Source: a bacterium
Lineage (GTDB): Bacteria > JAHJDO01
Length of the DNA stretch: 33,493 nt
Direction of reading: 5' to 3'
Assembly (NCBI GenBank): GCA_018812485.1
Contig: JAHJDO010000130.1
Coordinates: forward strand, 1-33,493
The notes beneath the pieces are model-generated. The model did no database searches. It saw only the letters and a program-made list of their open reading frames with translations, and was not told the DNA's origin. Positions within the stretch are counted from its first letter, which is position 1, and each line of letters starts with the position of its first letter. Shown one piece after another: positions 5,442 through 25,063 of the stretch. The position numbers were made by a program, and so were the translations under genes.

Positions 5442-6149
5442 ATGAAAACAAAGAGCAAACAAGAACTAAAAAAGTCGAAAACAAAAAAGGAGAAGAAGAT
5501 GCAAACTAAAAAACAGCCCAGTGGAAAAGGGCAGGTCGAAAAAGCAGTCAATAATAACAAGAAAGGGGAAAAGATGAACAAGACACAAGACAAAAAACAG
5601 TTGGTTGACCTTGAATCTGCATTGAAAGGAATTGCAGTCAAATTAACAAGAGACGATTTATTACAAGATGAACTTGTACAAGAGGGACTTATTGCCATAT
5701 GGACTAAGCAAAAGAGAGACGGTAACTATAACGAGGCATATCTCAGACAGCATGCAAAGCATCGTATGTTTAATTATCTAAAATTAGGAAGTAGTTTAGA
5801 TAATGGATTTCGTGAGATTACACAGATTGACCTTGTAAATGCTAATACAGGCGAAACCGTCGATTTACCACATCCTGAAAGCTTTATGCACAGAATATAT
5901 GCAAGAGACCTGAAAAGTCTTATAAATAAGCATACATCGGGCATAACAAACATGATTTTTCATATGTTTTGTGATGGATATGATGAAAACGAGATTGCAG
6001 GGAAACTTAAAATCTCTCAAAAAAATGTTAGCCGTGAAAGAGAAGTTGTTCAAGACCTTGTGAAAAAACTTTACGGAAGAGGTAAAGTTGCTTTACGTAA
6101 AGTCAGAGACAAGAGCAATAAAAATCAGCTCATTTTCTGCATTACATAA
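5442..6149 (+). CDS. Sigma-70-family RNA polymerase sigma factor (ECF-like)
   Basis: 235 aa from the ATG at 5442, chosen because AAAGGAGG lies 6-8 bp upstream; a longer frame from 5346 has no such site. After a lysine-rich tail of about 50 residues, a region-2-like domain shows DLLQDELVQEGLIAIW (the sigma 'DLVQEGxxxLW' core) and AYLRQHAKHRMFNYLK. The C-terminal part has a region-4 helix-turn-helix, DGYDENEIAGKLKISQKNVS with RERE after it. I infer that it directs RNA polymerase to the TGTCTAA/GTTATAT promoters, the first of which starts 208 bp past its stop. Its own promoter does not show that motif. Two further in-frame ATGs (5500, 5574) are each preceded by purine-rich ribosome-site-like sequence and could give shorter forms. 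It could instead be a phage-type transcription regulator with a sigma-like fold. Confidence 0.8.
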   Translation: MKTKSKQELKKSKTKKEKKMQTKKQPSGKGQVEKAVNNNKKGEKMNKTQDKKQLVDLESALKGIAVKLTRDDLLQDELVQEGLIAIWTKQKRDGNYNEAYLRQHAKHRMFNYLKLGSSLDNGFREITQIDLVNANTGETVDLPHPESFMHRIYARDLKSLINKHTSGITNMIFHMFCDGYDENEIAGKLKISQKNVSREREVVQDLVKKLYGRGKVALRKVRDKSNKNQLIFCIT

Positions 6150-6163
6150 TTTAGTTGCTTTAA

Positions 6164-6213
6164 CAGGTATCACCTGAAAAAGATCCCTTGCTTTCGCAAG
6201 GGGTCTTTTTTTT
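6164..6213 (+). terminator. Rho-independent terminator after the sigma gene
   Basis: GATCCCTTGC (6182-6191) pairs with GCAAGGGGTC (6196-6205) over 10 bp, followed by eight T. It is preceded by CAGGTATCACCTG (6164-6176), mini-hairpin 5 of the CAGG-N5-CCTG family. It separates the sigma gene from the first promoter of the regulon. Confidence 0.9.
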
Positions 6214-6266
6214 GCCCTTGTGTAGCGAGGTTTTGGCAAAAAGGGTCGAAGGAAAATTTGAAACTG

Positions 6267-6291
6267 CTATTTTTTCTATGAGAAAAAATAG
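6267..6291. other. A/T-rich 10-bp hairpin upstream of promoter 1
   Basis: CTATTTTTTC (6267-6276) pairs with GAAAAAATAG (6282-6291). On the minus strand it would be T-rich; it may be a bidirectional terminator or an operator. Confidence 0.4.
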
Positions 6292-6356
6292 AATGGAAGG
6301 GCATGTTACTAATAGTTAAATTACGCCATGCCAACGCTGGATATCGAAAAATGCTC

Positions 6357-6386
6357 TGTCTAAATAGCTTATTTTTACTGTTATAT
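6357..6386 (+). promoter_or_regulatory. Element promoter 1 (TGTCTAA-N16-GTTATAT)
   Basis: TGTCTAA 6357-6363 and GTTATAT 6380-6386, followed by ATATAGAG. Serves the DUF2958-RadC group. First of 16 copies. Confidence 0.8.
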
Positions 6387-6421
6387 ATATAGAGAAGCAA
6401 ACAACATGGGAGAAAGTAAAA

Positions 6422-6727
6422 ATGAAGTTATTGACTGAGGAAATTAAAAATAAGTTTCCGGAAATATATGCAAATGAGAATAAAAAACCAGAGGATATTC
6501 CTGTTATCTGTAAATTTTTTGACCCGACAGGCTCATGGGCTTGGTATGCAACGGAATTTGACGGGATAGATACTTTTTTTGGCTGGGTGCATGGATATTT
6601 TCCTGAATTAGGAACTTTCTCATTGAGAGAGTTGCAGAGTGTAAAGTTTTCGTTTGGGTTGGGAATTGAAAGAGACCTGCATTTCGGAAAACATACTCTG
6701 GCGGAAGTTATGGAAAAGAGACTATAA
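6422..6727 (+). CDS. DUF2958 family protein
   Basis: 101 aa. The whole length fits DUF2958: an N-terminal LLTEEIKNKFPEIYANE, then CKFFDPTGSWAWYATEFDG, FFGWVHGYFPELGTFSLREL, and the C-terminal GLGIERDLHF. The family is common on plasmids and conjugative elements, often beside radC, ardC and large methylase-helicase genes, as here. Its biochemical role is unknown. It is the first gene behind element promoter 1, with GGGAG a short way before the ATG. Confidence 0.85.
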   Translation: MKLLTEEIKNKFPEIYANENKKPEDIPVICKFFDPTGSWAWYATEFDGIDTFFGWVHGYFPELGTFSLRELQSVKFSFGLGIERDLHFGKHTLAEVMEKRL

Positions 6728-6739
6728 GGGGGGCAAATA

Positions 6740-7177
6740 ATGAACATTAGAACACCAAAAATTAAGATTGCAAATCCCGCTGAAATAGCTGGGATTCTGA
6801 CCAAAGTCCTCAATGCCGAAGATGAAAATGACCAGAAAAAAGAGCATTGCTGGGTCATTGGGTTAAGGGCATCAAAAGTAATCGAATTCTTGGAACTGGT
6901 CAGTCTTGGGTCGCTAACTATGGGAATTGTGCATCCTAGAGAAGTATTTAGATTAGCAATCCTCAAAAGAGTAGATAAAATTATTCTAGGACATAATCAT
7001 CCTTCGGGCGTTTTAACTCCTTCTAAAGAAGATTTAGACGTTACGAGAGAGCTGATTAAGGCTGGGCAGATACTTAGCATTGAATTATTGGACCATATAA
7101 TAATTTCACTAAAGGGAGAATTTCACAGCTTCTTAAATAATAATTTAATCAATAAATTAAAAGAGAAGGAACTATAA
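6740..7177 (+). CDS. radC: RadC-like JAB/MPN domain protein
   Basis: 145 aa, the size of the RadC C-terminal domain without the N-terminal HhH part. The JAMM-type metal site is visible: FLELVSLGSL contains the upstream acidic residue, then HPREVFRLAI and the core GHNHPSGVLTPSKEDLD (residues about 84-100, HxHPSG-x-D). Mobile-element RadC proteins are often called DNA repair proteins, but the family's repair role is doubtful and the activity is unknown. GGGGGG precedes the ATG, and the next gene starts 3 bp after the stop, so it belongs to the operon of promoter 1. Confidence 0.9.
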   Translation: MNIRTPKIKIANPAEIAGILTKVLNAEDENDQKKEHCWVIGLRASKVIEFLELVSLGSLTMGIVHPREVFRLAILKRVDKIILGHNHPSGVLTPSKEDLDVTRELIKAGQILSIELLDHIIISLKGEFHSFLNNNLINKLKEKEL

Positions 7178-7179
7178 AG

Positions 7180-7401
7180 ATGGCAAAAATAAAAGATTTT
7201 GCTTGGGAAGAGGAGTTAATCAAGATAGTAGCGGATTATAAAGAAAAAGAGGGTTATGAGGTAGATGAGGCTCTTGACGGCGATGAAACAGAACGATTGG
7301 CAGGAATACTGCTTATAGAGTTGGACTTAATGGAAGGCAATATTACTCAGGAAGAATATCTGAAAAGATTGGAAAGGCTGGAAACAAAATGGAAAAAATA
7401 A
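7180..7401 (+). CDS. Small acidic hypothetical protein
   Basis: 73 aa, highly charged and probably all helical (DFAWEEELIKIVADYKEKEG, ending YLKRLERLETKWKK). Starts 3 bp after radC and overlaps the next gene by 13 bp, which supports real, coupled translation. No family recognised. Confidence 0.7.
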   Translation: MAKIKDFAWEEELIKIVADYKEKEGYEVDEALDGDETERLAGILLIELDLMEGNITQEEYLKRLERLETKWKK

Positions 7402-7790
7402 ACAAGAATAAAATATATTATTCCGAAGAAAACAATGGTTCATTCTGGCGGGTAAAAACATTAACAGAGAGAACCATTGAACTTGAACGGATAAAAGATG
7501 TAAATAATAACGCTGATGATATTGGAGTAGATTTTGATGAGATAACTTGTAAATGGGATAACCGTTGTAAACATCATATATCAATGGATGATGATGAGAG
7601 CTTTACAATATACCCATATAGGAATGGACAACCATTTTGCTTTCAACCTGCAACAATAGAGGATTGTAATATGGAAATTAAGAGCTGTAAAAAATGGGGA
7701 GTAAGTGAAAAATTTTATCAAGATATAAAAACAGAAATAAAGGAATCGTCTCTCAATAATATAAAAATTCCTTTTTTAATCGGTGTCTAA
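7389..7790 (+). CDS. Hypothetical protein, 133 aa
   Basis: Overlaps the previous gene by 13 bp. The middle has CKWDNRCKHHISMDDDES and later GQPFCFQPATIEDC, but the Cys/His spacing is not a zinc finger I recognise. It ends ...IGV with GTC-TAA, where the TAA is also the end of the -35 element of promoter 2, so the next promoter lies directly on its 3' end. Function unknown. Confidence 0.75.
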   Translation: MEKINKNKIYYSEENNGSFWRVKTLTERTIELERIKDVNNNADDIGVDFDEITCKWDNRCKHHISMDDDESFTIYPYRNGQPFCFQPATIEDCNMEIKSCKKWGVSEKFYQDIKTEIKESSLNNIKIPFLIGV

Positions 7791-7813
7791 CTTCCTTGTG
7801 TTTACTGTTATAT
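7784..7813 (+). promoter_or_regulatory. Element promoter 2
   Basis: TGTCTAA 7784-7790 (includes the stop codon of the preceding gene), 16 bp, GTTATAT 7807-7813, then ATACGAG. Confidence 0.8.
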
Positions 7814-7850
7814 ATACGAGGTAAACAAATAATAATAACAAGGGGACGGC

Positions 7851-8048
7851 ATGATAGTTAAAAACCTGATAAAACTATTAAAGACTTTAGACCAAAATGC
7901 AGTGATAGATATGTCGTCAGACGAAGAAGGTAACAGCTTCGGAGATATATCTGAGAATTATGCCGAATTAACGCTAAAAGACGGAAGAAAAGCTTATGGC
8001 TTATATCCTATGAATAGCGAAGAACCTGGATGTAGATATAAATTCTAA
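7851..8048 (+). CDS. Hypothetical protein, 65 aa
   Basis: Follows promoter 2 with AAGGGGA as ribosome binding site. The N-terminus MIVKNLIKLLKTLDQNAVID resembles the start of several short phage/plasmid proteins that begin with 'v.eLi..L...dpda.V', but no function is known. Confidence 0.7.
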   Translation: MIVKNLIKLLKTLDQNAVIDMSSDEEGNSFGDISENYAELTLKDGRKAYGLYPMNSEEPGCRYKF

Positions 8049-8061
8049 AAGGAGGATAGTT

Positions 8062-8478
8062 ATGGAAAAGGTTTATCAAGTAAACAAGCATGGAAGATTG
8101 GTTATCGAGGAGAAAGAAGAAGATATAAAAAGTCGGGTCCTAGAAATGTTGAAAGAAGATACCGATTATAAAGATGAGGAAGCATTTAATAAGCATTTGA
8201 AAGAAGAATATAATGCTTATGATGATGAACATCTGATCAATACAATCTTCGGCGCAGTTAGTGATATTGTATCTTACGATTATAACTCATCACCGGAGTT
8301 CGATTCTTATGGTGAAGTAAGTTATTTTAGCAGAACAATAAATAAAACTGTAATGCTTACTCAAGATGATAGCTTTTGGTATGAGACCTTAGATGAAATC
8401 ATCGAGGCAATCAAAGGCTACGAAGTAGAAGTAAAGCAAGTTGAATATAATATGAAACACAGAACACACTCCGTCTAA
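8062..8478 (+). CDS. Acidic hypothetical protein, 138 aa
   Basis: Strong AAAGGAGG ribosome site 13 bp after the previous stop. The product is acidic (EEKEEDIKSRVLEMLKEDTD, EEYNAYDDEH) with an aromatic middle and no signal peptide or membrane segment. It ends HSV with GTC-TAA, the stop lying in the -35 element of promoter 3. Unknown function. Confidence 0.75.
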   Translation: MEKVYQVNKHGRLVIEEKEEDIKSRVLEMLKEDTDYKDEEAFNKHLKEEYNAYDDEHLINTIFGAVSDIVSYDYNSSPEFDSYGEVSYFSRTINKTVMLTQDDSFWYETLDEIIEAIKGYEVEVKQVEYNMKHRTHSV

Positions 8479-8501
8479 ATAGTCTGGTTCTGCTGTTATA
8501 T
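8472..8501 (+). promoter_or_regulatory. Element promoter 3
   Basis: CGTCTAA 8472-8478 (contains the preceding stop codon), 16 bp, GTTATAT 8495-8501, then ATACGAG. Confidence 0.8.
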
Positions 8502-8541
8502 ATACGAGCAGGATAAACAACAATAACAAAAAGGGGGAAGC

Positions 8542-9039: not shown

Positions 9040-9050
9040 AAAGTGTATCT

Positions 9051-9084: not shown

Positions 9085-9115
9085 TGACAGAAAAAGACAA
9101 TAAAGGTTTTGCTGC

Positions 9116-9145
9116 TGTCTAAGTCTCTTAATTCTTCTGTTATAT
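9116..9145 (+). promoter_or_regulatory. Element promoter 4
   Basis: TGTCTAA 9116-9122, 16 bp, GTTATAT 9139-9145, then CTATGAG. Serves the SWIM-domain gene and perhaps the structured RNA beyond it. Confidence 0.8.
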
Positions 9146-9187
9146 CTATGAGAGACAATAAAAGAATAGGATGCGAGGGAAAATATT

Positions 9188-10113: not shown

Positions 10114-10143
10114 TGTCTAAGTTTCTTGGTTCTCCTGTTATAT
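10114..10143 (+). promoter_or_regulatory. Element promoter 5
   Basis: TGTCTAA 10114-10120, 16 bp, GTTATAT 10137-10143, then CTATGAG. Confidence 0.8.
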
Positions 10144-10403: not shown

Positions 10404-11189
10404 ATGGCAAAAGTAAATATAAAAGAAAAAGTCAGTGAAATATTAAAAAAGGCAGGGGAGATTGACTTAAAAGAATTCGCAAAAAAATTGGCGAATTTTC
10501 ATAATTACAGCTTATGTAACTGTTTTATGATAATGATTCAAAGGGCTAATGCTTCGCAGTGTGCGGGATTCCATGCGTGGAAAAAACTGGGCAGGTATAT
10601 CAAAAAGGGCGAAAAAGGAATTATGATCCTAGCTCCGAGAGAATATATCCCTAGAGAAATCAAGCAGGATGATACTCTTACAGACGAGCAAAAAAAAGAG
10701 CAAAAAAGAATTGGTTTTGTGTCTGCTTATGTTTTTGATATATCGCAGACAGACGGAAAGGAACTGCCTCCGACAACAGAAGTTGAAAAATGCGAGGTGT
10801 CTTATCAGAGTTTAAAAACAAAAGTAGAAAAGAAATATCCTGTTATTGAAAAAGCTATGGAGTATTTAAAAAGCGGGCAGACAAACGGAAAAGAAATCTT
10901 TTTAAATTCTATAAAAACAGAACAAGAAAAAGTGTGTGTATTATTGCATGAACTGGCACATATAGAGCTTGAACATGCAGGAATAAATAATCAGGTTAAA
11001 AATCCGTTGACGAAAGAGCAGAAAGAAACAGAGGCGGAATTACTGGCTTATATTACAGCATCTGGCATGGGAATTGAATACAAGGCAGAAAATTATCTTG
11101 CTTACTACAAGACAAAATTAAATTGGGATTTATTGAATAGACTGAATAAGGGTTATTTAAGAATGAAAAAGCTGGTAGCTGTTGTCTAA
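10404..11189 (+). CDS. ArdC-like protein: ssDNA-binding domain plus zinc metalloprotease
   Basis: 261 aa. Residues about 20-75 match the N-terminal domain of ArdC-type antirestriction proteins (FHNYSLCNCFMIMIQRANAS, HAWKKLGRYIKKGEKGIMIL, AP). The C-terminal half has the ImmA/IrrE-type zinc site LLHELAHIELEH at about residues 180-191, with a downstream ETEAELLAYI providing the third ligand region. Plasmid ArdC proteins bind single-stranded DNA and protect incoming DNA from restriction. It ends VV with GTC-TAA in the -35 element of promoter 6. Closely comparable proteins often accompany DUF2958 and RadC, as here. Confidence 0.85.
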   Translation: MAKVNIKEKVSEILKKAGEIDLKEFAKKLANFHNYSLCNCFMIMIQRANASQCAGFHAWKKLGRYIKKGEKGIMILAPREYIPREIKQDDTLTDEQKKEQKRIGFVSAYVFDISQTDGKELPPTTEVEKCEVSYQSLKTKVEKKYPVIEKAMEYLKSGQTNGKEIFLNSIKTEQEKVCVLLHELAHIELEHAGINNQVKNPLTKEQKETEAELLAYITASGMGIEYKAENYLAYYKTKLNWDLLNRLNKGYLRMKKLVAVV

Positions 11190-11212
11190 AGAGCATTGAT
11201 TATCTGTTATAT
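11183..11212 (+). promoter_or_regulatory. Element promoter 6
   Basis: TGTCTAA 11183-11189 (contains the stop codon of the ArdC-like gene), 16 bp, GTTATAT 11206-11212, then GTATAAGA. Confidence 0.8.
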
Positions 11213-11257
11213 GTATAAGAAAAAGAAAACTCAAAATAGCCGAAGGGGGTTTGGAAA

Positions 11258-11485: not shown

Positions 11486-11666
11486 ATTTGAAGTGGGTGA
11501 TATGGCTAACGGAGTAAAAACAAGTAAAAAATACATGGAATCCTGTAATTACGTGACGGCTCTGGAAAGAGTGGTAGCAGACGCTAATCTTTATATTGAG
11601 CCCTGGGATGAAGAAGCAGAGAAACATATCAGAGGAGTTCAGGAAGTAAAATCAATAAAAATATAA
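11478..11666 (+). CDS. Hypothetical protein, 62 aa
   Basis: Starts inside the end of the preceding gene, suggesting coupled translation. Contains NYVTALERVVADANLYIEPW. Unknown function. Confidence 0.6.
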   Translation: MYKFEVGDMANGVKTSKKYMESCNYVTALERVVADANLYIEPWDEEAEKHIRGVQEVKSIKI

Positions 11667-11688
11667 AAACAAAAAAGCTAATAGCCAT

Positions 11689-11718
11689 TGTCTAAAGGCT
11701 TTGGATTATCTGTTATAT
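11689..11718 (+). promoter_or_regulatory. Element promoter 7
   Basis: TGTCTAA 11689-11695, 16 bp, GTTATAT 11712-11718, then GTATAGAAG. Confidence 0.8.
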
Positions 11719-11754
11719 GTATAGAAGATAAACAATTAAGGGAGAATAGATACA

Positions 11755-12351: not shown

Positions 12352-12381
12352 TGTCTAACTTTGTTAATTTAACGGTTATAT
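12352..12381 (+). promoter_or_regulatory. Element promoter 8
   Basis: TGTCTAA 12352-12358, 16 bp, GTTATAT 12375-12381 (preceded by CG rather than CT), then GTATAGAG. Drives the operon that contains the hammerhead ribozyme. Confidence 0.8.
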
Positions 12382-13424: not shown

Positions 13425-13454
13425 TGTCTAAGTGGTTTATTGTTGCTGTTATAT
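13425..13454 (+). promoter_or_regulatory. Element promoter 9
   Basis: TGTCTAA 13425-13431, 16 bp, GTTATAT 13448-13454, then AAATAGAA. Confidence 0.8.
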
Positions 13455-13974: not shown

Positions 13975-13988
13975 CAAAGGAAGGGAAA

Positions 13989-14342
13989 ATGAGTAAGGTA
14001 AAAAGATGTTGCAGAACCTGTAAATGCCTATTAAAGCAACACGATCAACATGTGTGTTATGAGGGCGGATTTTCCGAGATAGGTGATATTGATAGAAAGT
14101 TGACTATGAATGATTGTAATGCTTGGCAGGAAAAGAGTTTTAGTTTTTGGCTGTATGAGTATGCCTGTGATACTTGCCATTCAGTTTGGTATATGCAGGA
14201 AAAGATTAATAGACCATTAGATATTGACTTTGGATGTCCTCACGGTTGCGATGATGCAGGAAGATATGTTGGGAAAATGCAGGTTGAGAAATATAAATAT
14301 AAAACAAAGCCGTCTAAAAGCAGAAAACTTGCTGTTATATAA
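13989..14342 (+). CDS. Cysteine-rich protein, probably zinc-binding
   Basis: 117 aa. N-terminal CCRTCKCLLKQHDQHVC, then YACDTCHSVWYM and FGCPHGC, giving paired cysteines in at least three places and at least two likely zinc sites. The 3' end overlaps promoter 10: the codons GTT-ATA-TAA are the -10 element. Unknown function; possibly nucleic-acid binding. Confidence 0.7.
   Translation: MSKVKRCCRTCKCLLKQHDQHVCYEGGFSEIGDIDRKLTMNDCNAWQEKSFSFWLYEYACDTCHSVWYMQEKINRPLDIDFGCPHGCDDAGRYVGKMQVEKYKYKTKPSKSRKLAVI
14311..14340 (+). promoter_or_regulatory. Element promoter 10, inside the end of the preceding gene
   Basis: CGTCTAA 14311-14317, 16 bp, GTTATAT 14334-14340, then AAGTAGAA. Serves the membrane protein and dnaN. 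Confidence 0.78.
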
Positions 14343-14365
14343 GTAGAAACGAAAGGGGATATGTA

Positions 14366-14590
14366 ATGTGGATTATAACATGGAGTATGACTTTATTGAG
14401 TATTATTGGCGTAATTCTAAACATTAAAAAGAAAAGGATCTGTTTTGTTTTATGGTCAATAACAAATGTAAGCTGGTGCATTTATGACTTTACAATTCAA
14501 GCATATGCACAGAGCTTTTTGTTTCTTGTATATCTAGGATTGTCTATATGGGGAATCTTTGAATGGAAAAAGGAAAGAATAAAACAATAG
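14366..14590 (+). CDS. Small membrane protein, three helices (PnuC/SemiSWEET-like pattern)
   Basis: 74 aa, with hydrophobic segments MTLLSIIGVILNI, ICFVLWSITNVSWCIYDFTI and AQSFLFLVYLGLSIWGIFEW. The order 'lN...kk...W...N..W..Y' resembles small phage/plasmid membrane proteins related to PnuC nicotinamide-riboside transporters or SemiSWEETs. The substrate cannot be told. It is co-transcribed with dnaN, 12 bp downstream. Confidence 0.65.
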   Translation: MWIITWSMTLLSIIGVILNIKKKRICFVLWSITNVSWCIYDFTIQAYAQSFLFLVYLGLSIWGIFEWKKERIKQ

Positions 14591-14602
14591 GAGTAAAAAG
14601 CC

Positions 14603-15673
14603 ATGAAAATGACTGTAAAGAAAGAAAATCTAATTGATGCGCTTGCGTATTGTAGCGGAGCTGCAGGTAGCAAAAGGAATACTCTACCCGTTTTGGAATG
14701 CGTAAAGATGTCTGCAAAAGAGGGAAAACTGGAGTGTGTAACAACTGATCTTGAAATAACGCTGGGGAAAAGCGTTGAGTGTGAAGTAGAAAAAGAAGGG
14801 ACTATCCTTGTTTTACACAGAGATTTATTTGGCTTGGTAAAAGAGATTGATGTAGAAATGATCAGCCTTGAAGTAGAGAAAAAAGACACGGAAGAAGAAA
14901 AAGAAAAAACAGGTGTGCTTTTGCTAAAAACCGATAAGGGCAAGTATAGATTGCCGTTAGCAAAGGTTCAGGATTTCCCAAAGATTGAAAAAGTAGAAGC
15001 GAAAACAAGTCTGGAAATAGATATTAAAGAAGTGCTTCAGAAAACTATGTTTGCAGTGTCTAATGATGAAATAAGATATGCTCTAAACGGAGTGTTTTTT
15101 GATGGCGAAAATGCCGTTGCGACAAATGGGATTCGACTATCAGTAATACCCTGTAGTCTAATACCCTGTAGTCTAAGTGAAACAAGCTGTATTGTGCCTA
15201 CAAACGCCTGCAGGGAAATTGCGAAGATTGACGGAAAAGCAGAGGTGCAGATAACAGATAAAAATATCTTATTTAGAAATAATGGATCATATATTAAATC
15301 AAGGTTGGTAGAGGGGAAGTTCCCGGATTACAAGACGATAATTCCAAAAAACGATTGTAAAATAAAAATAAACAGCGAGGAATTGGTAAACGTACTTAAG
15401 AGAATGAAGCTGATCGATGAAAGCGCAGTAGAAATTGCTTTTGGAAAAGACAGTGTTGTATTTAAAAATGGGAAAGAAGGGAAAACAGCTAACGAAGAAA
15501 TGGTTATTAAAAATGAAGAAGAAAAGAAGTTTGCTATAAATCCTGTTTTCTTAATAGAAGTATTGAAAAGAGTAAGCGGAGAGGTTGTTTTTGAATTAGG
15601 GGAAGACGCAAATTCCCCAATTGTAATTAAAAAAGATGATTTTACCCATATCATAATGCCTGTCAAGCTTTGA
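14603..15673 (+). CDS. dnaN: DNA polymerase III beta subunit (sliding clamp)
   Basis: 356 aa, slightly short for a bacterial clamp of about 370. The three clamp domains are visible: the N-terminal MTVKKENLIDALAYCSGAAG...NTLPVLECVKM and VTTDLEI, the middle MFAVSNDEIRYALNGVFFD with ATNGIRLSV, and the C-terminal VNVLKRMKLID ending FTHIIMPVKL (the typical 'MPxRL' end). It encircles DNA and tethers polymerases and repair enzymes. A 15-bp tandem duplication (15146-15175) repeats IPCSL in the second domain. A plasmid-borne clamp implies that the element replaces or redirects the host replisome. GGAG precedes the start. A parS-like palindrome follows 4 bp after the stop. Confidence 0.93.
   Translation: MKMTVKKENLIDALAYCSGAAGSKRNTLPVLECVKMSAKEGKLECVTTDLEITLGKSVECEVEKEGTILVLHRDLFGLVKEIDVEMISLEVEKKDTEEEKEKTGVLLLKTDKGKYRLPLAKVQDFPKIEKVEAKTSLEIDIKEVLQKTMFAVSNDEIRYALNGVFFDGENAVATNGIRLSVIPCSLIPCSLSETSCIVPTNACREIAKIDGKAEVQITDKNILFRNNGSYIKSRLVEGKFPDYKTIIPKNDCKIKINSEELVNVLKRMKLIDESAVEIAFGKDSVVFKNGKEGKTANEEMVIKNEEEKKFAINPVFLIEVLKRVSGEVVFELGEDANSPIVIKKDDFTHIIMPVKL
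15146..15175 (+). repeat. 15-bp tandem duplication within dnaN
   Basis: ATACCCTGTAGTCTA occurs twice in tandem and encodes IPCSLIPCSL. It keeps the frame and looks like a recent slippage event. Confidence 0.9.
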
Positions 15674-15677
15674 TTAG

Positions 15678-15701
15678 AAAAGTTGAGCGCGCTCAACTTT
15701 T
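15678..15701. repeat. parS: parS-like palindrome, copy 1
   Basis: Perfect 24-bp palindrome around GTTGAGCGCGCTCAAC with AAAA/TTTT flanks and no loop. Three copies occur (15678, 24956, 31414), one upstream of parAB, and the core has the size and symmetry of ParB sites. As RNA it could also act as a weak terminator. Confidence 0.65.
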
Positions 15702-15722
15702 AAAAAACAAGTGTTTAATAGG

Positions 15723-15742
15723 GTCTCTGTGAGACTGCTTTT
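15723..15742 (+). terminator. Possible terminator after dnaN
   Basis: GTCTC-TGT-GAGAC (15723-15735) followed by TGCTTTTTG. Short stem, so moderate support. Confidence 0.5.
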
Positions 15743-15777
15743 TGTTTATAAGTAAGTCAGAAGTTTTTTAACAGTCC

Positions 15778-15807
15778 AGTCTAAAGTTTTTCCTAAAGCT
15801 GTTATAT
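15778..15807 (+). promoter_or_regulatory. Element promoter 11
   Basis: AGTCTAA 15778-15784, 16 bp, GTTATAT 15801-15807, then AAGTAGAAG. Confidence 0.78.
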
Positions 15808-15841
15808 AAGTAGAAGAACAAACAACAGAGGGAGTTTAGAT

Positions 15842-16030
15842 ATGGCATCAAAAGTAATTAAAAAACTAGAATCCAAAGACCAAGCATACGCCTTTTATAT
15901 CTTCCAGTTAAAAGAAAAACACAGACATCTTGAAGATATAGCAAACATAGGTAAAGACTTGAAAAAATTAGAGAAAGATTACGGGTTTAAAAAACCGAAT
16001 ATAAGTTTAGATTTCTATGTGGAGGTGTAA
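15842..16030 (+). CDS. Small helical hypothetical protein, 62 aa
   Basis: AGAGGGAG ribosome site. Helical and charged (KKLESKDQAYAFYIFQLKEK, IGKDLKKLEKDYG). Unknown function. Confidence 0.65.
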   Translation: MASKVIKKLESKDQAYAFYIFQLKEKHRHLEDIANIGKDLKKLEKDYGFKKPNISLDFYVEV

Positions 16031-16032
16031 AG

Positions 16033-16134
16033 ATGAGCAAATATCAAAGAATTTGGATCCATTTAATATGTATAGCTAAAGCCGGACATTTAGTTTGGCA
16101 CATTAAGGGCATATTGAGGGAATTCTTTGCCTAA
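16033..16134 (+). CDS. Very small hypothetical protein, 33 aa
   Basis: GGAGGTGTAAAG gives a good ribosome site over the end of the previous gene. The product MSKYQRIWIHLICIAKAGHL and VWHIKGILREFFA is a hydrophobic, aromatic helix, perhaps membrane-associated. Confidence 0.5.
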   Translation: MSKYQRIWIHLICIAKAGHLVWHIKGILREFFA

Positions 16135-16159
16135 AACTTTTTAAATAGGGGTTTTGAAA

Positions 16160-16573
16160 ATGGTTAATCAAATGGAATTGTTTAGAGAAAATAAGGTAAT
16201 GCCAGGCACAAATGGCGTGAGTTATGTTCCTGTTAAAGAAAAAAGCGCGGAGGACAAAGAGCTTTCTTATCTGAGTGATCTGGAAAAAGCTGAGTATCTG
16301 TGGGATATGAGGGCTTGGAAACAATACAAAGACCAGGCAGAAGTTGAGGATTACGTTAACGAGCCTACGAGCAAAAACAATGGCCATTCTATGTGGTGTG
16401 TGGAGAGATTAAAGGAGCTAGGTGTTGTAAAGAATAAAATAATCCAGGTAATAATGAAAAATCCTTATATCCAATACAAAAATCGGTTAGTCGCTTGTAT
16501 GGCGGGAGAAACCTGCCCAAAATTTGAGAAGTTTAAAAGTTACTCTGAATGTGGTTGTGAAAAATGTCAATAG
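16160..16573 (+). CDS. Hypothetical protein with C-terminal cysteine cluster
   Basis: 137 aa from ATG 16160; a TTG two codons earlier is less likely. The C-terminus holds ACMAGETCPKF and YSECGCEKCQ, six cysteines in about 25 residues, suggesting a metal-binding tail. The middle YLWDMRAWKQYKDQAEVEDY is helical. Unknown function. Confidence 0.7.
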   Translation: MVNQMELFRENKVMPGTNGVSYVPVKEKSAEDKELSYLSDLEKAEYLWDMRAWKQYKDQAEVEDYVNEPTSKNNGHSMWCVERLKELGVVKNKIIQVIMKNPYIQYKNRLVACMAGETCPKFEKFKSYSECGCEKCQ

Positions 16574-16578: not shown

Positions 16579-16608
16579 TGTCTAACTTTTTCAGAAAAAC
16601 TGTTATAC
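16579..16608 (+). promoter_or_regulatory. Element promoter 12
   Basis: TGTCTAA 16579-16585, 16 bp, GTTATAC 16602-16608 (last base differs), then ATATAGAA. Confidence 0.75.
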
Positions 16609-16627
16609 ATATAGAAAGGGGGTCGTG

Positions 16628-16828
16628 ATGATTTGTATAGGAATTTTGGCTTTAATTATTCTGGGAATAGATATTTATTTAAACGATCAAGAGGATCTTG
16701 CTGAGTTGTGTCTTTGGATAAAACGAACTACTGGATCTTTGAAAGCAAAATTAAGAAGTCAAAAAAGAAGAAATATTAAGAAAACTATAAGAGGGAGTGC
16801 GATATGGCAATCACAGTTAAAGAAATAA
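16628..16828 (+). CDS. Small single-pass membrane protein
   Basis: 66 aa from ATG 16628 (a GTG one codon upstream is too near the GGGGG ribosome site). Hydrophobic helix MICIGILALIILGIDIYL at the N-terminus, then a strongly basic tail (KLRSQKRRNIKKTIRG). Overlaps the next gene by 25 bp. Unknown. Confidence 0.6.
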   Translation: MICIGILALIILGIDIYLNDQEDLAELCLWIKRTTGSLKAKLRSQKRRNIKKTIRGSAIWQSQLKK

Positions 16829-17088
16829 AAGAAGACGATATAAGTTTGGGACGTCATTTTGCAATCTGGAGTGGATGTGATTGCAGATTTATGGATTATG
16901 ATGGATTGGGTTTTTCAAGAGATAGCATAGAGGATTATGTTAAGAAAAATCCATTTCCGGAAGATGAATATTACAGCGAAGGTGACATGATTTGTGATTT
17001 TACAAGTGCAGATGGGAGTGTAACCTTGCGTTGCGAGAAGGAAGAAACGGCGGATTGGGTTGCTGATATGATCAATGCTTTGCTTTGA
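16804..17088 (+). CDS. Hypothetical protein, 94 aa
   Basis: GAGGGAG ribosome site inside the previous gene's end. Acidic and mixed alpha/beta, with a CDCRFMDYDGLG segment and a C-terminal WVADMINALL helix. Its TGA stop overlaps an ATG (TGATG) of a 35-codon ORF. Confidence 0.65.
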   Translation: MAITVKEIKEDDISLGRHFAIWSGCDCRFMDYDGLGFSRDSIEDYVKKNPFPEDEYYSEGDMICDFTSADGSVTLRCEKEETADWVADMINALL

Positions 17089-17195
17089 TGCTAAAAGGGT
17101 TAAAAAAGTATTTGCTAAGCAGGGGGAGTTGTTTGCATGAAAGCGACAAAAACCAGGTAATAAGAGATATAAAAACAAAAGGAAATGAGAGATGA
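17088..17195 (+). CDS. Translationally coupled 35-aa ORF
   Basis: Starts in a TGATG overlap with the previous stop and ends in an ATGA overlap with the next start, reading MLKGLKKYLLSRGSCLHESD. The double overlap supports translation, but the ORF is short and no family is recognised. Confidence 0.45.
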   Translation: MLKGLKKYLLSRGSCLHESDKNQVIRDIKTKGNER

Positions 17196-17464
17196 ATCGA
17201 ATAGATTTTACTGTCAGGCAAAAGGGGGAATATAATAGATATTGTTATTATAAAGGGTTTGATGGTGAAAAACATATGTGGACTAAAAAGTTAAAAGAAG
17301 CAGATTTATTTCTGGATGCAAATACAGCTTTTGATTTTAAAGATAAATTAAAATTTAATAGTCCTCGTGTTGTGGCAATAATTACAAATGGAGAAAGTAA
17401 GATTATAAAAGTATTTAAACCTACAAGAAAGAAATACTATGTTAAGCAATCGCAGAAAGATTAA
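17192..17464 (+). CDS. Basic hypothetical protein, 90 aa
   Basis: AAAGGAAATG precedes the start. Strand-rich and basic (RQKGEYNRYCYYKGFDGEKH, VVAIITNGESKIIKVFK). Unknown. Confidence 0.65.
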   Translation: MNRIDFTVRQKGEYNRYCYYKGFDGEKHMWTKKLKEADLFLDANTAFDFKDKLKFNSPRVVAIITNGESKIIKVFKPTRKKYYVKQSQKD

Positions 17465-17473
17465 AGGGTAAAA

Positions 17474-17743
17474 ATGAAAGGTGATAGCAAGGTGAAGATA
17501 GAAAACTATTCACCATATCCGGGGTTTTTAGACTTGAGAGACTATGAATTACCTAAAAGAGATTTTATGCGATGGTGGAAAGTTCAAGACATGCTGGCTC
17601 ATATGCAAAAAAGAGCGGAATATTTTAAGAAATACCATCCTGCCCAATGGCAAAAAGCACAAGAAATATCAGCGGAATATAACATGATAATTATGGACTT
17701 GAAAGTTAAAAGAAGACTAGGGCAGGGAGTGCTAGGAATATGA
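17474..17743 (+). CDS. Hypothetical protein, 89 aa
   Basis: Starts 9 bp after the previous stop and overlaps the next start by ATGA. Aromatic and helical (DFMRWWKVQDMLAHMQKRAE, YFKKYHPAQWQKAQEIS). Unknown function. Confidence 0.65.
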   Translation: MKGDSKVKIENYSPYPGFLDLRDYELPKRDFMRWWKVQDMLAHMQKRAEYFKKYHPAQWQKAQEISAEYNMIIMDLKVKRRLGQGVLGI

Positions 17744-18000
17744 GATATTGGGTTGATCTTAAATACAAAAAGTTCGACGTAGTTCGCTATAGTGATTATT
17801 TTTTACCGGGACTGATCCCTCAACACGTATTAGATATGATGCTGGCTGATTATGTTGATGAAGAACTGGGTTTGTGTGCAGCATGTGAGGAACTACATTG
17901 TAAATGTCATGTAATAGAGTGGGAGACGGGTAGAAAGTTCTGCCCAATTTTATTTCACGATGTTGTGAAACCTAAGTGGGCAATATCGGAGTTAGTGTGA
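17740..18000 (+). CDS. Hypothetical protein with small Cys/His cluster
   Basis: 86 aa, ATGA overlap with the preceding gene. CAACEELHCKCHVIEWETG and KFC make a likely single zinc site in the middle. Last gene behind promoter 12. Confidence 0.65.
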   Translation: MRYWVDLKYKKFDVVRYSDYFLPGLIPQHVLDMMLADYVDEELGLCAACEELHCKCHVIEWETGRKFCPILFHDVVKPKWAISELV

Positions 18001-18119: not shown

Positions 18120-18149
18120 TGTCTAAAACTCGCCATTCTCCTGTTATAT
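18120..18149 (+). promoter_or_regulatory. Element promoter 13
   Basis: TGTCTAA 18120-18126, 16 bp, GTTATAT 18143-18149, then CTATAGAA. Confidence 0.8.
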
Positions 18150-18175: not shown

Positions 18176-18694
18176 ATGCTTGTATTTGATTGTAAGGGCG
18201 GGAAGGGAATTAATATCAACGGGAAAGATTACTTTCTTATAAGAGGCTATACCAGAAATTACGATGATTTTATTTTTCTCCAGGTATCAGGAAACACGTC
18301 TCTTAGAAAAGAAGATCTACCAAACAAAGATTGGGATGTCTTTGTAACAAAAACCGCAGGGCAAAGAGTTTATACGGCATATAGAAAACCGTATTTTAAT
18401 TATGGGACAACAAAAGCAGACGTAACATTATGTTATATAGGCGCGTCTACACAAGGCAGCTACTTTATAGCGTTAAAAGATATCGCAAGAATATATAAAT
18501 TGGTAGTTAGTGACGAGGTGCTATTTGAGAGAGCTGGTTGTGAGGAAGTTGTAAATAGCCGGGGATTAGAAAAATTAAATGATAAGGGAATCTTAGACGT
18601 TGACGCAGTTACGGTGCGATATGACAACTGGTACATGAAAGAAAGCAGAGCTAAAGAGTTGATTTTTAGGGAAGAAGATACAAACGATGTCTAA
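18176..18694 (+). CDS. Hypothetical protein, 172 aa
   Basis: Start chosen at ATG 18176 after GAGGGGGG; the open frame extends left through the promoter and is not translated there. Mixed alpha/beta, with GGKGININGKDYFLIRGYTR at the start. No motif recognised. It ends NDV with GTC-TAA inside the -35 element of promoter 14. Confidence 0.72.
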   Translation: MLVFDCKGGKGININGKDYFLIRGYTRNYDDFIFLQVSGNTSLRKEDLPNKDWDVFVTKTAGQRVYTAYRKPYFNYGTTKADVTLCYIGASTQGSYFIALKDIARIYKLVVSDEVLFERAGCEEVVNSRGLEKLNDKGILDVDAVTVRYDNWYMKESRAKELIFREEDTNDV

Positions 18695-18717
18695 ATACGT
18701 TTGTTTTGCGGTTATAT
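18688..18717 (+). promoter_or_regulatory. Element promoter 14
   Basis: TGTCTAA 18688-18694 (contains the preceding stop codon), 16 bp, GTTATAT 18711-18717, then AGATAGAA. Confidence 0.8.
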
Positions 18718-21700: not shown

Positions 21701-22195
21701 CAGGACTTTGCTAACGACGAGGATAGTGTTGCGATTGTAGCAGGGTTAAACGTTTTAAATAGGGGATTCAATATTACGTGCGCAAATAATGTGATTATTG
21801 CAGATCTGGAATATAGCCCTGAAAGCACATTGCAAGCAGAGGATAGAGCGCACAGAACTGGCCAGGACAAGCCGGTGAATGTTTACTATCTTTTATCAAA
21901 GGGAACGATTGACGAGGATATGTTTGAAATAATAAGCAAAAAACAAGCAGCAATAGAAAATGCCATTGACGGAAAGGCGGTACATGCAGACGTTGCAAAG
22001 TTGCTTGAAAATGCAGGGGACGTTCGATTGAAGATTGCAAAGAGGCTTTTAGAAAAACCAAAAGCAATAAAAATCAAGGTTGCTGAAAAAATAGATGTAA
22101 CTGTTAAAGAGGAAAGGATTGAAGAAGAAGCAGAGAAAGAGGTTTTTATTGTGACAGGTGGTAAGCAAATGAGCTTCGGGTTTGCAAATGTCTAA
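18743..22195 (+). CDS. N6-adenine methylase fused to SNF2-type helicase (DarB-like)
   Basis: 1150 aa. N-terminal methylase: SAM motif I LDPTCGSGRLL (residues about 71-81) and catalytic TNPPFG (134-139). The helicase follows: FEYQKEDIARLGLKPFGYLG, Walker A DMGGGKT (about 549-555), a zinc-ribbon insertion with CPDCHKKF, CPKCKED and CNKCGY (about 660-695), Walker B VDEAQ (about 722), LTGTLM, and motif VI QAEDRAHRTGQ (about 1031). No nuclease domain is seen, unlike type ISP restriction enzymes. The methylase-helicase order recalls phage P1 DarB, which protects DNA from type I restriction, but this protein is about half as long. Together with the ArdC-like protein it suggests anti-restriction; a restriction or other defence role is the alternative. 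Alone behind promoter 14, and ends NV with the stop in promoter 15. Confidence 0.85.
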   Translation: MSDLAVLEKESFTDDDLGFSGRKANKNVASFHLLGKSKHQQYFTSLGLSEAIFKGLLPAIDEDKIEKVKVLDPTCGSGRLLVPWNKAGAKVIGIELDKEAGTVARRLIGKQNVRIGDLLDYKSLIRSNFDVVVTNPPFGIYWDIEGKNISFNTGCYGNSIESQSATLEIAINALDSPGLLAAIVPSSMFENQKDKKIRDYLFEHLNFLLKATISNSFKAEYGIDVKVDLLIAKREYQYGNENVNDCRKVEVDVKEKHWKEYLIGQIQGVIGERDIKINNPYSDKIEIPFIENVKPIETSNRLSITKRGITTDNASAGALGAFCNKVLEDYSPVLGTNTGILDAYVSKPALFVRGIDEGEGILKRLGFNVEIKKTDRLQIAKEKKKYDFLTTPIYRPEVHQLLGYYLNKEYRAKETIKDKDGNVIFLKDKKYKLWPEWKRNKELVKVEGARDSKGKEYSIKTELDRGYLAISVDTEQGKRTYNEINKEEISEFIKAFSLPDIQDIEGKYSKQLEGNKKKLEKQAPFLFEYQKEDIARLGLKPFGYLGYDMGGGKTISAAAWAKLRGYKRCLVVCQSSLVSNWKNELEKFDYKVIRLMTHRTIDKLIAEKRAGIKQEETTFYITSYEFLSLDTKREYDPWDCLEYDNDGDVYRETRGITSHVCPDCHKKFAAKIKECPKCKEDVLWTGNVCNKCGYVAYSYTPEHRSYPAYKRIIKLFEAVIVDEAQMAKTKNSGRGKAVRALKSKGKLILTGTLMKGYITDIFWNIGWTLGFDNPLFYYKYRGGSKKFLNEFGTFKFVTKQFEDTLSEGRAKIIPEVSNLNRFWRIMAPFMVRRLKDEMVELPEKNKKIIFLDMDREHENLYGAFEEWARERIRKAMLMAGDEKEVNIGKISGALWKLRFAATVPTAKNYLLDERGPNMVLPEWSSWNKVDKIIELVKEIKRKGEKCIIFSGLRPMVSEITKRLRRDYIRHMAILASHSTSKRFDMIQDFANDEDSVAIVAGLNVLNRGFNITCANNVIIADLEYSPESTLQAEDRAHRTGQDKPVNVYYLLSKGTIDEDMFEIISKKQAAIENAIDGKAVHADVAKLLENAGDVRLKIAKRLLEKPKAIKIKVAEKIDVTVKEERIEEEAEKEVFIVTGGKQMSFGFANV

Positions 22196-22218
22196 AATCA
22201 AAAGTTTATCTGTTATAT
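22189..22218 (+). promoter_or_regulatory. Element promoter 15
   Basis: TGTCTAA 22189-22195 (contains the stop codon of the methylase-helicase), 16 bp, GTTATAT 22212-22218, then AGGTGGAG. Confidence 0.78.
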
Positions 22219-22236
22219 AGGTGGAGAAACAAAATT

Positions 22237-22470: not shown

Positions 22471-22771
22471 AGTTGCGGGAATAAGAGACAAGGAAAAGGG
22501 GTGTTTGCTTTATGTAAATGGGCGCAAAGTAATTCACCAGGCAAAACACTCTCCGACAGGTATGGAATGGGGCTATGGTGGTTCTGGTCCTGCAGATACA
22601 GCAAGAAGTGTTCTTATGATGGTCCTTCATGGAAACAAGGTAACTAATATGCTCTATCAACAATTTAAGTGGGATTTTGTGGCTAAGTGGCGAGGAGATA
22701 AGATTAAGGAGATAATAGATTTAGGGCAATGGCTAAAAGAGCAGAAACAAGGTCTTAATAGCAGTTTGTAA
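22460..22771 (+). CDS. DUF6166 family protein
   Basis: 103 aa. The hallmark HSPTGMEWGYGGSGPADTAR (residues about 31-50) matches the 'F-E-W-G-Y-x-G-S-G-P-x-x-L-A' core of DUF6166, followed by a hydrophobic helix and YQQFKWDFVAKW ('y..FK...v'). The family is frequent on plasmids and phages; no function is known. Its start lies within the previous gene after TTGGGGG. Confidence 0.75.
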   Translation: MKIEVAGIRDKEKGCLLYVNGRKVIHQAKHSPTGMEWGYGGSGPADTARSVLMMVLHGNKVTNMLYQQFKWDFVAKWRGDKIKEIIDLGQWLKEQKQGLNSSL

Positions 22772-22808
22772 AAACAAAATGTGTAACGGAGAAAGAGCAA
22801 ATTATTTA

Positions 22809-22837
22809 TTGACAGATAAAATTTAATGCATTACGAT
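22809..22837 (+). promoter_or_regulatory. Sigma-70-type promoter of the ATPase gene
   Basis: TTGACA 22809-22814, 17 bp, TACGAT 22832-22837. It overlaps a tandem repeat ACGATGAATGTCG (22833-22845 and 22848-22860), which may be an operator. Unlike the surrounding genes this one does not use the element promoter. Confidence 0.6.
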
Positions 22838-22875
22838 GAATGTCGTAACGATGAATGTCGGAAAGGAGACCGTTA

Positions 22876-23976
22876 ATGAACCCCTTTAGATTTGGCACTA
22901 TAGTAACAGGTACCTATTTTGTGAATAGAGTTGACGAGATAAAACAAATTACCTCTGATATAAAGGCGAATCAGCATATAATATTGATTAGTCCCCGTCG
23001 GTATGGTAAGAGTAGCCTTATAAATAGGGTTATAGAGGAGAACAAAATAACGTCATTCCATATTGATTTAGAACTAATTACGGACGAGATAGATCTTGCT
23101 AATTTCTATGTCAGAAAAGCATTGTCGTTAAGCCGATTCGAGAAAATGAAACATTATTTAAAAAACTTAAGAGTACAACCTTCTATCCAAATACAGCCGG
23201 AGAAAGACGAAATCTCTATATCATTCAGTGCCGAAGACAAGAATGTTTCCGCACTTTTATCGGATAGTCTTGAACTTCCTGAGATTATTGCTAAAAACAT
23301 GAAAAAAAAGATAGCAATAATATTTGATGAATTTCAGGAAATACGTAGGATTTCTCCTATGCTTGAAAAGAAAATGAGAGGAATATTTCAACACCATCAG
23401 AATGTAACATATATCTTTATAGGAAGCCAGGAAAGCATGATAAGAGAAATATTCCAGGATAGGAATAATCCCTTTTATAAATTTGGTCGCCAGATGGTCT
23501 TGAACAAGATCCCAGAGTCTGAATTTTTGGATTTTATCGTACAGCAGTTTAAGTTGCAACAAATTGATGCCGAAGGAATAGCAAAAGATATCTTGAGATT
23601 CACAGATTGTCATCCATATTATACTCAGCAACTATGTCATGAAATTTATATACTAAATGAAGATAAAACACTAAAAATAGAGATAATAGAGAAAGCGGTT
23701 AATCAAATCACAACAGAGCATCATTCAGATTATTCACAATGGTGGAATAATCTGGATAATACAGAACGAAAAGTTATTATTGGTATAGCCTCCGGCGAAC
23801 ACAACCATACATCACGAAATTTTATTAAAAAATACGGAATTAAATCATCGAGCACTTCGAGCAGCGCTGTGGGGAGATTAATTAATTCTGGGGTAATTGT
23901 GAAAAAAAGAGACGAGGGATTTGAAATAGAAGATCCTTTTTGGAGAGTATGGATTTTAAAAAATAGGGAGCAATAA
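22876..23976 (+). CDS. AAA-type ATPase of the archaeal-type/MSP family
   Basis: 366 aa from ATG 22876, chosen because the Shine-Dalgarno GGAAAGGAG lies inside the longer frame that begins at 22855. Opens with MNPFRFGTIVTGTYFVNRVD, typical of this family; Walker A SPRRYGKSSL (about 39-48), Walker B AIIFDEFQEI (about 145-155), sensor-like IFIGSQESM, and a C-terminal winged helix (RNFIKKYGIKSSSTSSSAVG, then FEIEDPFWRVWI). Such single-gene STAND-like ATPases are common, mobile and of largely unknown function; some are thought to act in defence or as toxins. It is cargo-like here, with its own promoter and operator repeats. Confidence 0.85.
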   Translation: MNPFRFGTIVTGTYFVNRVDEIKQITSDIKANQHIILISPRRYGKSSLINRVIEENKITSFHIDLELITDEIDLANFYVRKALSLSRFEKMKHYLKNLRVQPSIQIQPEKDEISISFSAEDKNVSALLSDSLELPEIIAKNMKKKIAIIFDEFQEIRRISPMLEKKMRGIFQHHQNVTYIFIGSQESMIREIFQDRNNPFYKFGRQMVLNKIPESEFLDFIVQQFKLQQIDAEGIAKDILRFTDCHPYYTQQLCHEIYILNEDKTLKIEIIEKAVNQITTEHHSDYSQWWNNLDNTERKVIIGIASGEHNHTSRNFIKKYGIKSSSTSSSAVGRLINSGVIVKKRDEGFEIEDPFWRVWILKNREQ

Positions 23977-24011
23977 AAAGTAGAAATTAAAAAATAAAGA
24001 AAGGAGAACCA

Positions 24012-24245
24012 ATGAAGGGGAAAACAGAAATTTTGTCAGAAGGGGATTATAAAATCCAAGCGATCTGCTATTGGGTTGTTACCTCTGTGTTTTTCATATT
24101 AGCATCAGTAAATATTTTATACTATAATTCAACACATGGAATGATTTGTCTCGCAATCGGTGCAATGTTCTATCTACGTTTGGGCACCCTTAAAGAGAAT
24201 TTCGTCATTTATAAAAAATTAAGCGAAATTGAAAAGGGAAAATAG
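24012..24245 (+). CDS. Small membrane protein, two helices
   Basis: 77 aa, AAAGGAG ribosome site. Two hydrophobic segments (AICYWVVTSVFFILASVNIL and MICLAIGAMFYLRLG) with a charged C-terminus. Probably transcribed from the ATPase promoter. No family recognised. Confidence 0.65.
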   Translation: MKGKTEILSEGDYKIQAICYWVVTSVFFILASVNILYYNSTHGMICLAIGAMFYLRLGTLKENFVIYKKLSEIEKGK

Positions 24246-24281
24246 AACTAAATTTTGACTTTTAGCAAAGGAGAGTAAGTT

Positions 24282-24791
24282 ATGCAAAGCGAAAAAAGCA
24301 AAAAAAGATATACGGTTATATTCCCAGCATTAATGTTAATAATAGGGATAACATTGGTATGTTGGATATTGTTTGGTCTCGAAGAGAAAAAACCTTTGGC
24401 GGTAGCAGAAGCCATAGAGACCTTGCAGTCGGCGGTGAATAGATATTATGTTGCAAATAACGTATGGCCTGCAGATATGGCAACCCTACAGGCTGCTGGG
24501 TATTTACCTGCCAGCTTTTTAAAGACTACCCCTTGGGGAGGAGTCTATTCTATTGGTGTGAATAGTGCTGATCCACAAAAATTTGATATTCGCCTTAGTC
24601 TCCCATCGTCTGCAGTAGCTAAGCTAACCACAGTACCTTTGGATAAGCGGTGGGAATCTACGACAGCATGGTGGCTCCCAGTAGCGCTTTTCTTGGGTAT
24701 GTGCTTTATGGGATATTTCCTGCTGATTTATCCAGGTGTCCTGAATTGTTGCTCGCGAGAAAGGAAGAAAAAAATACATAAGGAGTGCTAG
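24282..24791 (+). CDS. Pilin/T2SS-GspG-like membrane protein with extra C-terminal helix
   Basis: 169 aa. An N-terminal membrane helix (VIFPALMLIIGITLVCWILF) is followed by AEAIETLQSAVNRYYVANNV and WPADMATLQAAGYLPASF, the pattern of pseudopilin globular domains (helix, then 'P..l..L...gyl'), and TPWGGVYSIGV. A second helix, WWLPVALFLGMCFMGYFLLI, lies near the C-terminus, which normal pilins lack. The N-terminus has no clear prepilin peptidase site. It may be a membrane-anchored periplasmic protein derived from a pseudopilin fold. It sits in the cargo-like segment. Confidence 0.6.
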   Translation: MQSEKSKKRYTVIFPALMLIIGITLVCWILFGLEEKKPLAVAEAIETLQSAVNRYYVANNVWPADMATLQAAGYLPASFLKTTPWGGVYSIGVNSADPQKFDIRLSLPSSAVAKLTTVPLDKRWESTTAWWLPVALFLGMCFMGYFLLIYPGVLNCCSRERKKKIHKEC

Positions 24792-24795
24792 GGAT

Positions 24796-24948
24796 ATGGA
24801 ATTATTAAATGCAATACGTAAATTAGAAAAAGAAGGTTGGAAACGATTTTCAAATAACCGAGCACCTAATACTAAAAAAAATCTAAAAAAATATGATTTT
24901 TGTACTTATGGGATATTATTGTTTTATAGATTAAAAAACCAGGGATAA
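24796..24948 (+). CDS. Small basic hypothetical protein, 50 aa
   Basis: Starts 4 bp after the previous stop with AAGGAG 9-12 bp upstream. MELLNAIRKLEKEGWKRFSN and then a lysine-rich stretch, ending LLFYRLKNQG. Unknown; possibly a remnant. Confidence 0.45.
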   Translation: MELLNAIRKLEKEGWKRFSNNRAPNTKKNLKKYDFCTYGILLFYRLKNQG

Positions 24949-24955
24949 AATAGTG

Positions 24956-24975
24956 AAGTTGAGCGCGCTCAACTT
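24956..24975. repeat. parS: parS-like palindrome, copy 2
   Basis: 20-bp palindrome with the same GTTGAGCGCGCTCAAC core. Lies at the border between the cargo-like segment and the promoter-16 operon. Confidence 0.65.
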
Positions 24976-25005
24976 TTAATATAGGCTTTAAAACGAAGAG
25001 TGGAA

Positions 25006-25033
25006 GACAGGATAATTTGTCCTGTCTTTTTTT
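25006..25033 (+). terminator. Rho-independent terminator before promoter 16
   Basis: GACAGGA (25006-25012) pairs with TCCTGTC (25020-25026), followed by seven T. Insulates promoter 16 from the cargo-like genes. Confidence 0.88.
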
Positions 25034-25034
25034 A

Positions 25035-25063
25035 TGTCTAAATTTATTTTTCTACGGTTATAT
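25035..25063 (+). promoter_or_regulatory. Element promoter 16 (15-bp spacer variant)
   Basis: TGTCTAA 25035-25041, 15 bp, GTTATAT 25057-25063, then CAATAGAG. The only copy with a shorter gap. It begins the operon from 25104 to about 31406. Confidence 0.72.

Follow-up and report, generated by a model that had tools for sequence, protein, structure and literature searches.

Which protein reads a promoter-like sequence that stands, almost unchanged, before most genes of an element? The question is raised by contig C130 (JAHJDO010000130.1, 33,493 nt) from a bacterial assembly of 2.68 Mb in 172 contigs; the whole contig is referred to here as the window. It carries 16 near-identical bipartite repeats and, upstream of the first of them, open reading frame (ORF) 5442, the gene of a putative sigma factor. 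A first-pass annotation of the window had proposed that the ORF 5442 product reads these promoters. The reading preferred here, to which we give a probability of about 0.8 on the strength of the sequences, is that this sigma factor reads all 16, that the region from ~6.4 to 31.4 kb is one regulon, and that the regulon also takes in, in trans, conjugation genes of a second contig, C89. Protein family, promoter geometry, confinement of the motif and a sigma paralogue lying beside a copy of the motif on a third contig, C125, are all consistent with the proposal, while recognition itself is a step that we infer.

The repeated promoter motif

The 16 sites were found at the positions previously assigned to them, all on the plus strand with a -35/-10-like geometry, 15 having a spacer of 16 nt (N16) and the site at 25035 one of 15 nt (Table 1). 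TGTCTAA-N16-GTTATAT is exact in 11 of the 16; the sites at 8472, 14311 and 15778 deviate only in its first base, and that at 16579 has GTTATAC instead of GTTATAT. The core boxes of the first-pass annotation were recovered within a motif that is longer than described, the extended consensus from the 15 aligned N16 sites being tGTCTAA-N14-C(t/g)GTTATAT-nnrTAgA. GTCTAA, the spacer C and GTTATA are invariant across the aligned sites, the final two bases of the spacer are this C followed by T or G, and rTAgA begins 2 nt past GTTATAT. None of the 15 has T directly after TATAT, the base there being A, C or G.

Matches to the motif with up to three mismatches numbered 26 in the window, against a mean of 6.25 in shuffled sequence (largest shuffle 11). 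A scan of the window with a 39-bp position weight matrix (PWM) returned 15 sites scoring 33-46 (24-44 by leave-one-out) and nothing between 9 and 33, so the sites form a discrete class; no PWM site was found in eight windows simulated with a third-order Markov model. Every site precedes a gene with a ribosome binding site, as had been noted, although the distance, earlier given as 20-65 bp, was measured as 17-46 nt from the end of the motif to a start codon with a Shine-Dalgarno sequence (16 of 16). At 7784, 8472, 11183, 18688 and 22189 the TAA of GTCTAA also serves the preceding gene as stop codon, and reading frames across the motif are interrupted by stops at several sites.

The intervening bases, previously described as not conserved, are broadly so, except in a five-member subclass which shares nearly the whole spacer AATCAAAAGTTTAT (window 22189; C89 19159 and 26929; C125 1829, minus strand; and G001:C25 2912, from a genome of the same genus). 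These five sites sit in largely unrelated surroundings, unlike the other sites. Between positions 11155-11217 and 11661-11723 of the window the likeness (79%) reaches past the motif and takes in the end of the ArdC gene that lies upstream, which suggests that promoters may spread by local duplication.

A motif common across the host chromosome, the circumstance in which the first-pass annotation would have given up an element-specific reader, was looked for and not found: exact sites in the host assembly are restricted to C130, C89, C116 and C125, a few small and mostly plasmid-like contigs, and matches with two mismatches numbered 588, compared with 964 for a reversed control pattern. C89 (36.6 kb) encodes an RPA replication initiator, TrbI, TraC, TraG_N, TraU, TraH and a partial TrwC relaxase, together with a secretin and type II secretion system/type IV pilus-like genes; of its two sites, one stands before traH and the other before a lipoprotein-like gene. 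C125 (9.4 kb) encodes the sigma paralogue, adjoined by a consensus site, and an ATPase related to the window gene at 22855. C116 is an unassigned 4-kb fragment with a minus-strand site before a relative of window ORF 27746. C130 and C89 may be parts of one plasmid, because parAB lies on the former and the initiator and transfer genes on the latter; no overlaps of at least 15 bp were found between the ends of the four contigs. As a separate observation, the F-type conjugation genes of C89 (G000:C89; L011, L012) stand alongside secretin, PilB/PilC-like and pilin-like genes, and its pilin region resembles window 24423-24554.

The motif was also present in a metagenome-assembled genome (MAG) of the same genus, CSMAG_2459 (G004), in which a 5.4-kb contig (G004:C89, JAUWOV010000096.1) shares synteny with window 13977-16490 and has retained the sites at 14311 and 15778 in the corresponding places. 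At the former about half of the inner 14-nt spacer has changed, whereas, except for the first base, the two boxes and AAGTAGA downstream of them are kept. In a second MAG of the genus (G001) one site was found, on an otherwise chromosome-like contig, in a short stretch that it shares with C125. Other matches in viral contigs and genome contigs occurred once per contig without clusters and were set aside as chance-like, the G004 contig excepted.

ORF 5442 and the proposed regulon

By its sequence, ORF 5442 is an ECF-like (extracytoplasmic function) protein of the sigma-70 family with regions 2 and 4, the two regions that the first-pass annotation had recognised in it. Region 2 was matched by Pfam Sigma70_r2 (E 2e-5; 24.7 bits, above the gathering threshold of 24), and TIGR02937 (sigma70-ECF) aligned with residues 57-199 at E 7e-8, below its curated cutoff. 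This span includes the helix-turn-helix of region 4, for which the structural model has helices at 148-211. In the model, which is of low confidence, regions 2 and 4 are linked and region 3 was not seen; its fold matches in the PDB were mostly ECF sigmas, the best at E 2e-3 and none at E <= 0.001. The protein has a lysine-rich N-terminal extension, a second good start lies at 5574 (residue 45), and a match to PHROG 1740, a family of phage-encoded sigma factors, was weak (E 9e-6). It is the sole promoter-specificity factor recognised among the proteins of the element.

The paralogue on C125 is 53% identical to ORF 5442. Identity between the two rises to 78% in region 2.3-2.4, compared with 40% in region 2.1-2.2, and AYLRQHAKHRMFN is identical at 13 of 13 residues. 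Region 2.3-2.4 reads the -10 element, and its conservation fits a -10 element that is unchanged. No relatives of the sigma factor were found in viral contigs, genome contigs, plasmid records or 50,697 phage records. A search of 385 genomes matched only G031, where the gene is chromosomal, lies beside glycine-cleavage genes and lacks a repeated bipartite motif, and it was rejected as a counterpart.

The leader of the sigma gene is predicted to fold as a long RNA rod pairing the Shine-Dalgarno sequence of ORF 5442 (z -2.46 here and -2.71 on C125), and one arm has two alternative pairing partners. As the predicted rod pairs this sequence in both copies, translational control of the sigma factor is possible; the two leaders are so nearly identical that they offer no covariation by which the rod could be judged. 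The leader and N-terminal codons (window 4990-5545; L014 5449-5916) are far more alike between the paralogues than are the sigma domains. Short matches to the leader in G004 and G001 were discounted as A-rich chance. A promoter scan upstream of the sigma gene gave no more candidates than were obtained in shuffles.

Under the proposed scheme, host polymerase would make the sigma factor from its own unit, closed by a terminator-like hairpin. The sigma would then join host core RNA polymerase and direct it to the 16 promoters, with tGTCTAA as the -35 element, CtGTTATAT as the -10 element and 17 bp between the hexamers, and transcription would start in or near rTAgA, some 7 nt downstream. Production of the sigma would thus turn on together nearly every gene from 6.4 to ~31.4 kb, a span running from DUF2958/RadC through ArdC, the beta clamp and the methylase-helicase to the exonuclease-like-to-UvrD run. 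With a sigma gene and 16 near-identical promoters before most genes, the element is probably switchable as one block, and the nature of these genes suggests a replication or transfer programme. The sigma gene would be set apart by its own promoter, terminator and conserved structured leader; the retron and parAB would also lie outside, no such site having been found before either in a scan of the window. In one and the same cell, either this sigma or the paralogue on C125 could act in trans on the promoters of C89, with its conjugation genes, C116 and C125. A broader and more tentative suggestion, which we hold to be possible but rather doubtful, is that two diverged sigmas (C130 and C125) read the same promoters across all four contigs, so that the sigma of one element would switch on the genes of another, among them those for transfer, under a structured-RNA leader that is shared.

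Table 1. Positions in the window of the motif sites and of the sigma gene with its flanking signals
Feature	Position	Strand	Remarks
Leader and N-terminal codons of sigma gene	4990..5545	+	Nearly identical on C125 (matches 86-95%)
Element-encoded ECF-like sigma factor (putative)	5442..6149	+	235 amino acids; Pfam, NCBIfam and fold matches
Terminator-like hairpin and T-run	6182..6212	+	CCCTTGCTTTCGCAAGGGGTCTTTTTTTT; would end the sigma unit before the regulon
Site 1	6357..6386	+	Before DUF2958, RadC-like and two small genes (6422-7790); C125 counterpart at 4498, 88% over 50 bp
Site 2	7784..7813	+	Before 7851 and 8062
Site 3	8472..8501	+	Before 8542
Site 4	9116..9145	+	Before SWIM-domain gene 9188
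Site 5	10114..10143	+	Before glutaredoxin 10172 and ArdC/M78 gene 10404
Site 6	11183..11212	+	Before 11258 and 11478
Site 7	11689..11718	+	Before 11755 and 12078
Site 8	12352..12381	+	Before 12414 and 12637
Site 9	13425..13454	+	Before 13486, 13750 and 13989
Site 10	14311..14340	+	Before PnuC-like 14366 and DnaN beta clamp 14603; kept in G004, spacer diverged
Site 11	15778..15807	+	Before 15842 and 16154; kept in G004
Site 12	16579..16608	+	Before 16625-18000
Site 13	18120..18149	+	Before 18176
Site 14	18688..18717	+	Before 1150-amino-acid methylase/SNF2 helicase gene 18743
Site 15	22189..22218	+	Before 22237 and 22460; spacer common to sites on C89, C125 and in G001
Site 16	25035..25063	+	N15 spacer; before 25104 and exonuclease-to-UvrD run 25314-31406

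Alternative readings

Several observations weigh against ORF 5442 as the reader. The AlphaFold2 model, with its two helical domains, has a pLDDT of 55 and a pTM of 0.37. Region 4, which would be expected to read the invariant -35 element, shows no special conservation from one sigma to the other (55%, with 47% in the recognition helix) and adds no support. No site lies upstream of 5442 down to a PWM score of 9. Finally, in G004 and G001 sites were found and no sigma homologue, the kind of case that the first-pass annotation had named as telling against its proposal, but in assemblies that are 90% and 62% complete respectively and hold only fragments.

The sites might instead be promoters of the housekeeping sigma, with an extended -10-like TGnTATAt and an upstream box for an activator encoded on the element, in which case the regulon would be real and its reader a protein other than ORF 5442. 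The middle promoters of phage T4, at which MotA binds, are the model for such an activator box used with a host sigma. TGTTATAT does resemble an extended -10, an upstream box at fixed spacing suits an activator, and some proteins of the window are of unknown function. However, the -10 element of sigma-70 wants T at its last position, where the sites have A, C or G after TATAT, and an invariant C before T or G is not a feature of extended -10 promoters. The small helix-turn-helix (HTH) protein at 851 pairs with the retron reverse transcriptase, no other activator was recognised, and the element encodes a dedicated sigma. We consider this explanation unlikely.

It is more improbable still that the promoters belong to an alternative sigma of the host and are exploited by the element, with ORF 5442 otherwise employed. 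Such an arrangement would account for the sites of G004 and G001, although the state of those two assemblies reduces the force of this point, and the restriction of exact sites to four contigs of the host assembly, with near-matches below the reversed control, argues against it. Least probable of all are signals at the DNA or RNA level (cassette recombination sites, iterons, processing sites or coding remnants), which could explain one site per gene cluster, the spacer shared by five sites in dissimilar surroundings and the likeness of 11155-11217 to 11661-11723. Against such signals stand an asymmetric bipartite motif at fixed spacing always shortly before a Shine-Dalgarno sequence and start codon, the stops in frames through the motif at several sites, the G004 spacer that diverged between two fixed boxes, and the want of a recognisable integrase among the window proteins scanned.

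Related systems and neighbouring features

A layout of this kind was not known to the first-pass annotation from any plasmid. One such system has been described and mapped experimentally: SigN (ZpdN) of the Bacillus subtilis plasmid pBS32, for which 17 promoters on the plasmid have been mapped and 2 more predicted (PMC6751061). SigN is plasmid-encoded, has been called weakly ECF-like, autoactivates and is controlled by LexA (PMC6751061). Our motif scan of pBS32 gave 22 matches, all on the plus strand, and the same bipartite-repeat signal as in the window. In both cases a sigma gene is accompanied by many near-identical promoters on one strand of the same element, restricted to that element and placed before small genes and genes of DNA metabolism. 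By analogy, the window system would work like the SigN regulon. It is not a demonstrated relative, because ORF 5442 has no detectable homology with SigN (BLASTP E 4.0; hhalign probability 0.1), the pBS32 motif is TTTACGT with GATATAA, and the window has no site before its sigma gene, so that autoactivation as in SigN appears to be absent. pBS32 carries phage structural genes, whereas C89, the possible partner of the window, carries F-type conjugation genes.

Phages 7-11 and phiEco32 encode sigmas with their own promoter classes (PMC4331800), and there too a sigma of the element assumes control of a temporal class of genes, acting at conserved, phage-specific promoters; unlike those regulons, the window has no capsid, terminase or tail gene recognised among its proteins scanned. 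On its low-confidence model ORF 5442 would share with ECF sigmas the joining of regions 2 and 4 by a linker, and it differs from them generally in falling below the curated NCBIfam cutoffs (TIGR02937, TIGR02985) and in its N-terminal extension. The familiar ECF -35 type is GGAAC, from which the -35 of the window differs.

The window would place plasmid control of the SigN/pBS32 type in a deep-branching uncultured lineage, and the apparently unrelated sigma and motif suggest more than one origin for sigma regulons that span an element. ORF 5442 and its sites are a candidate orthogonal sigma-promoter pair, with 16 natural variants to define specificity, and cross-activation between co-resident elements becomes a testable question.

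Outside the proposed regulon, at 851-2151, the HTH protein and reverse transcriptase correspond to retron type VI of PADLOC (RT_VI E 2e-70; HTH_VI E 9e-19). The run after site 16 extends from the exonuclease-like gene through a Gp3-like (recombination-directionality-factor-like) gene to UvrD. A search of the window against Rfam yielded nothing beyond a sub-threshold match to n00280 (a Clostridioides difficile sRNA in a helicase gene) at 31226-31321, inside the UvrD gene, which is probably conserved coding sequence. The perfect palindrome AAGTTGAGCGCGCTCAACTT is present in three copies (15680-15699, 24956-24975 and 31415-31434) and nowhere else in the host assembly with up to one mismatch. Two copies lie 6-9 bp past the stop codons of dnaN and UvrD, the latter also being upstream of parAB, and the copies are candidate terminators or parS sites.

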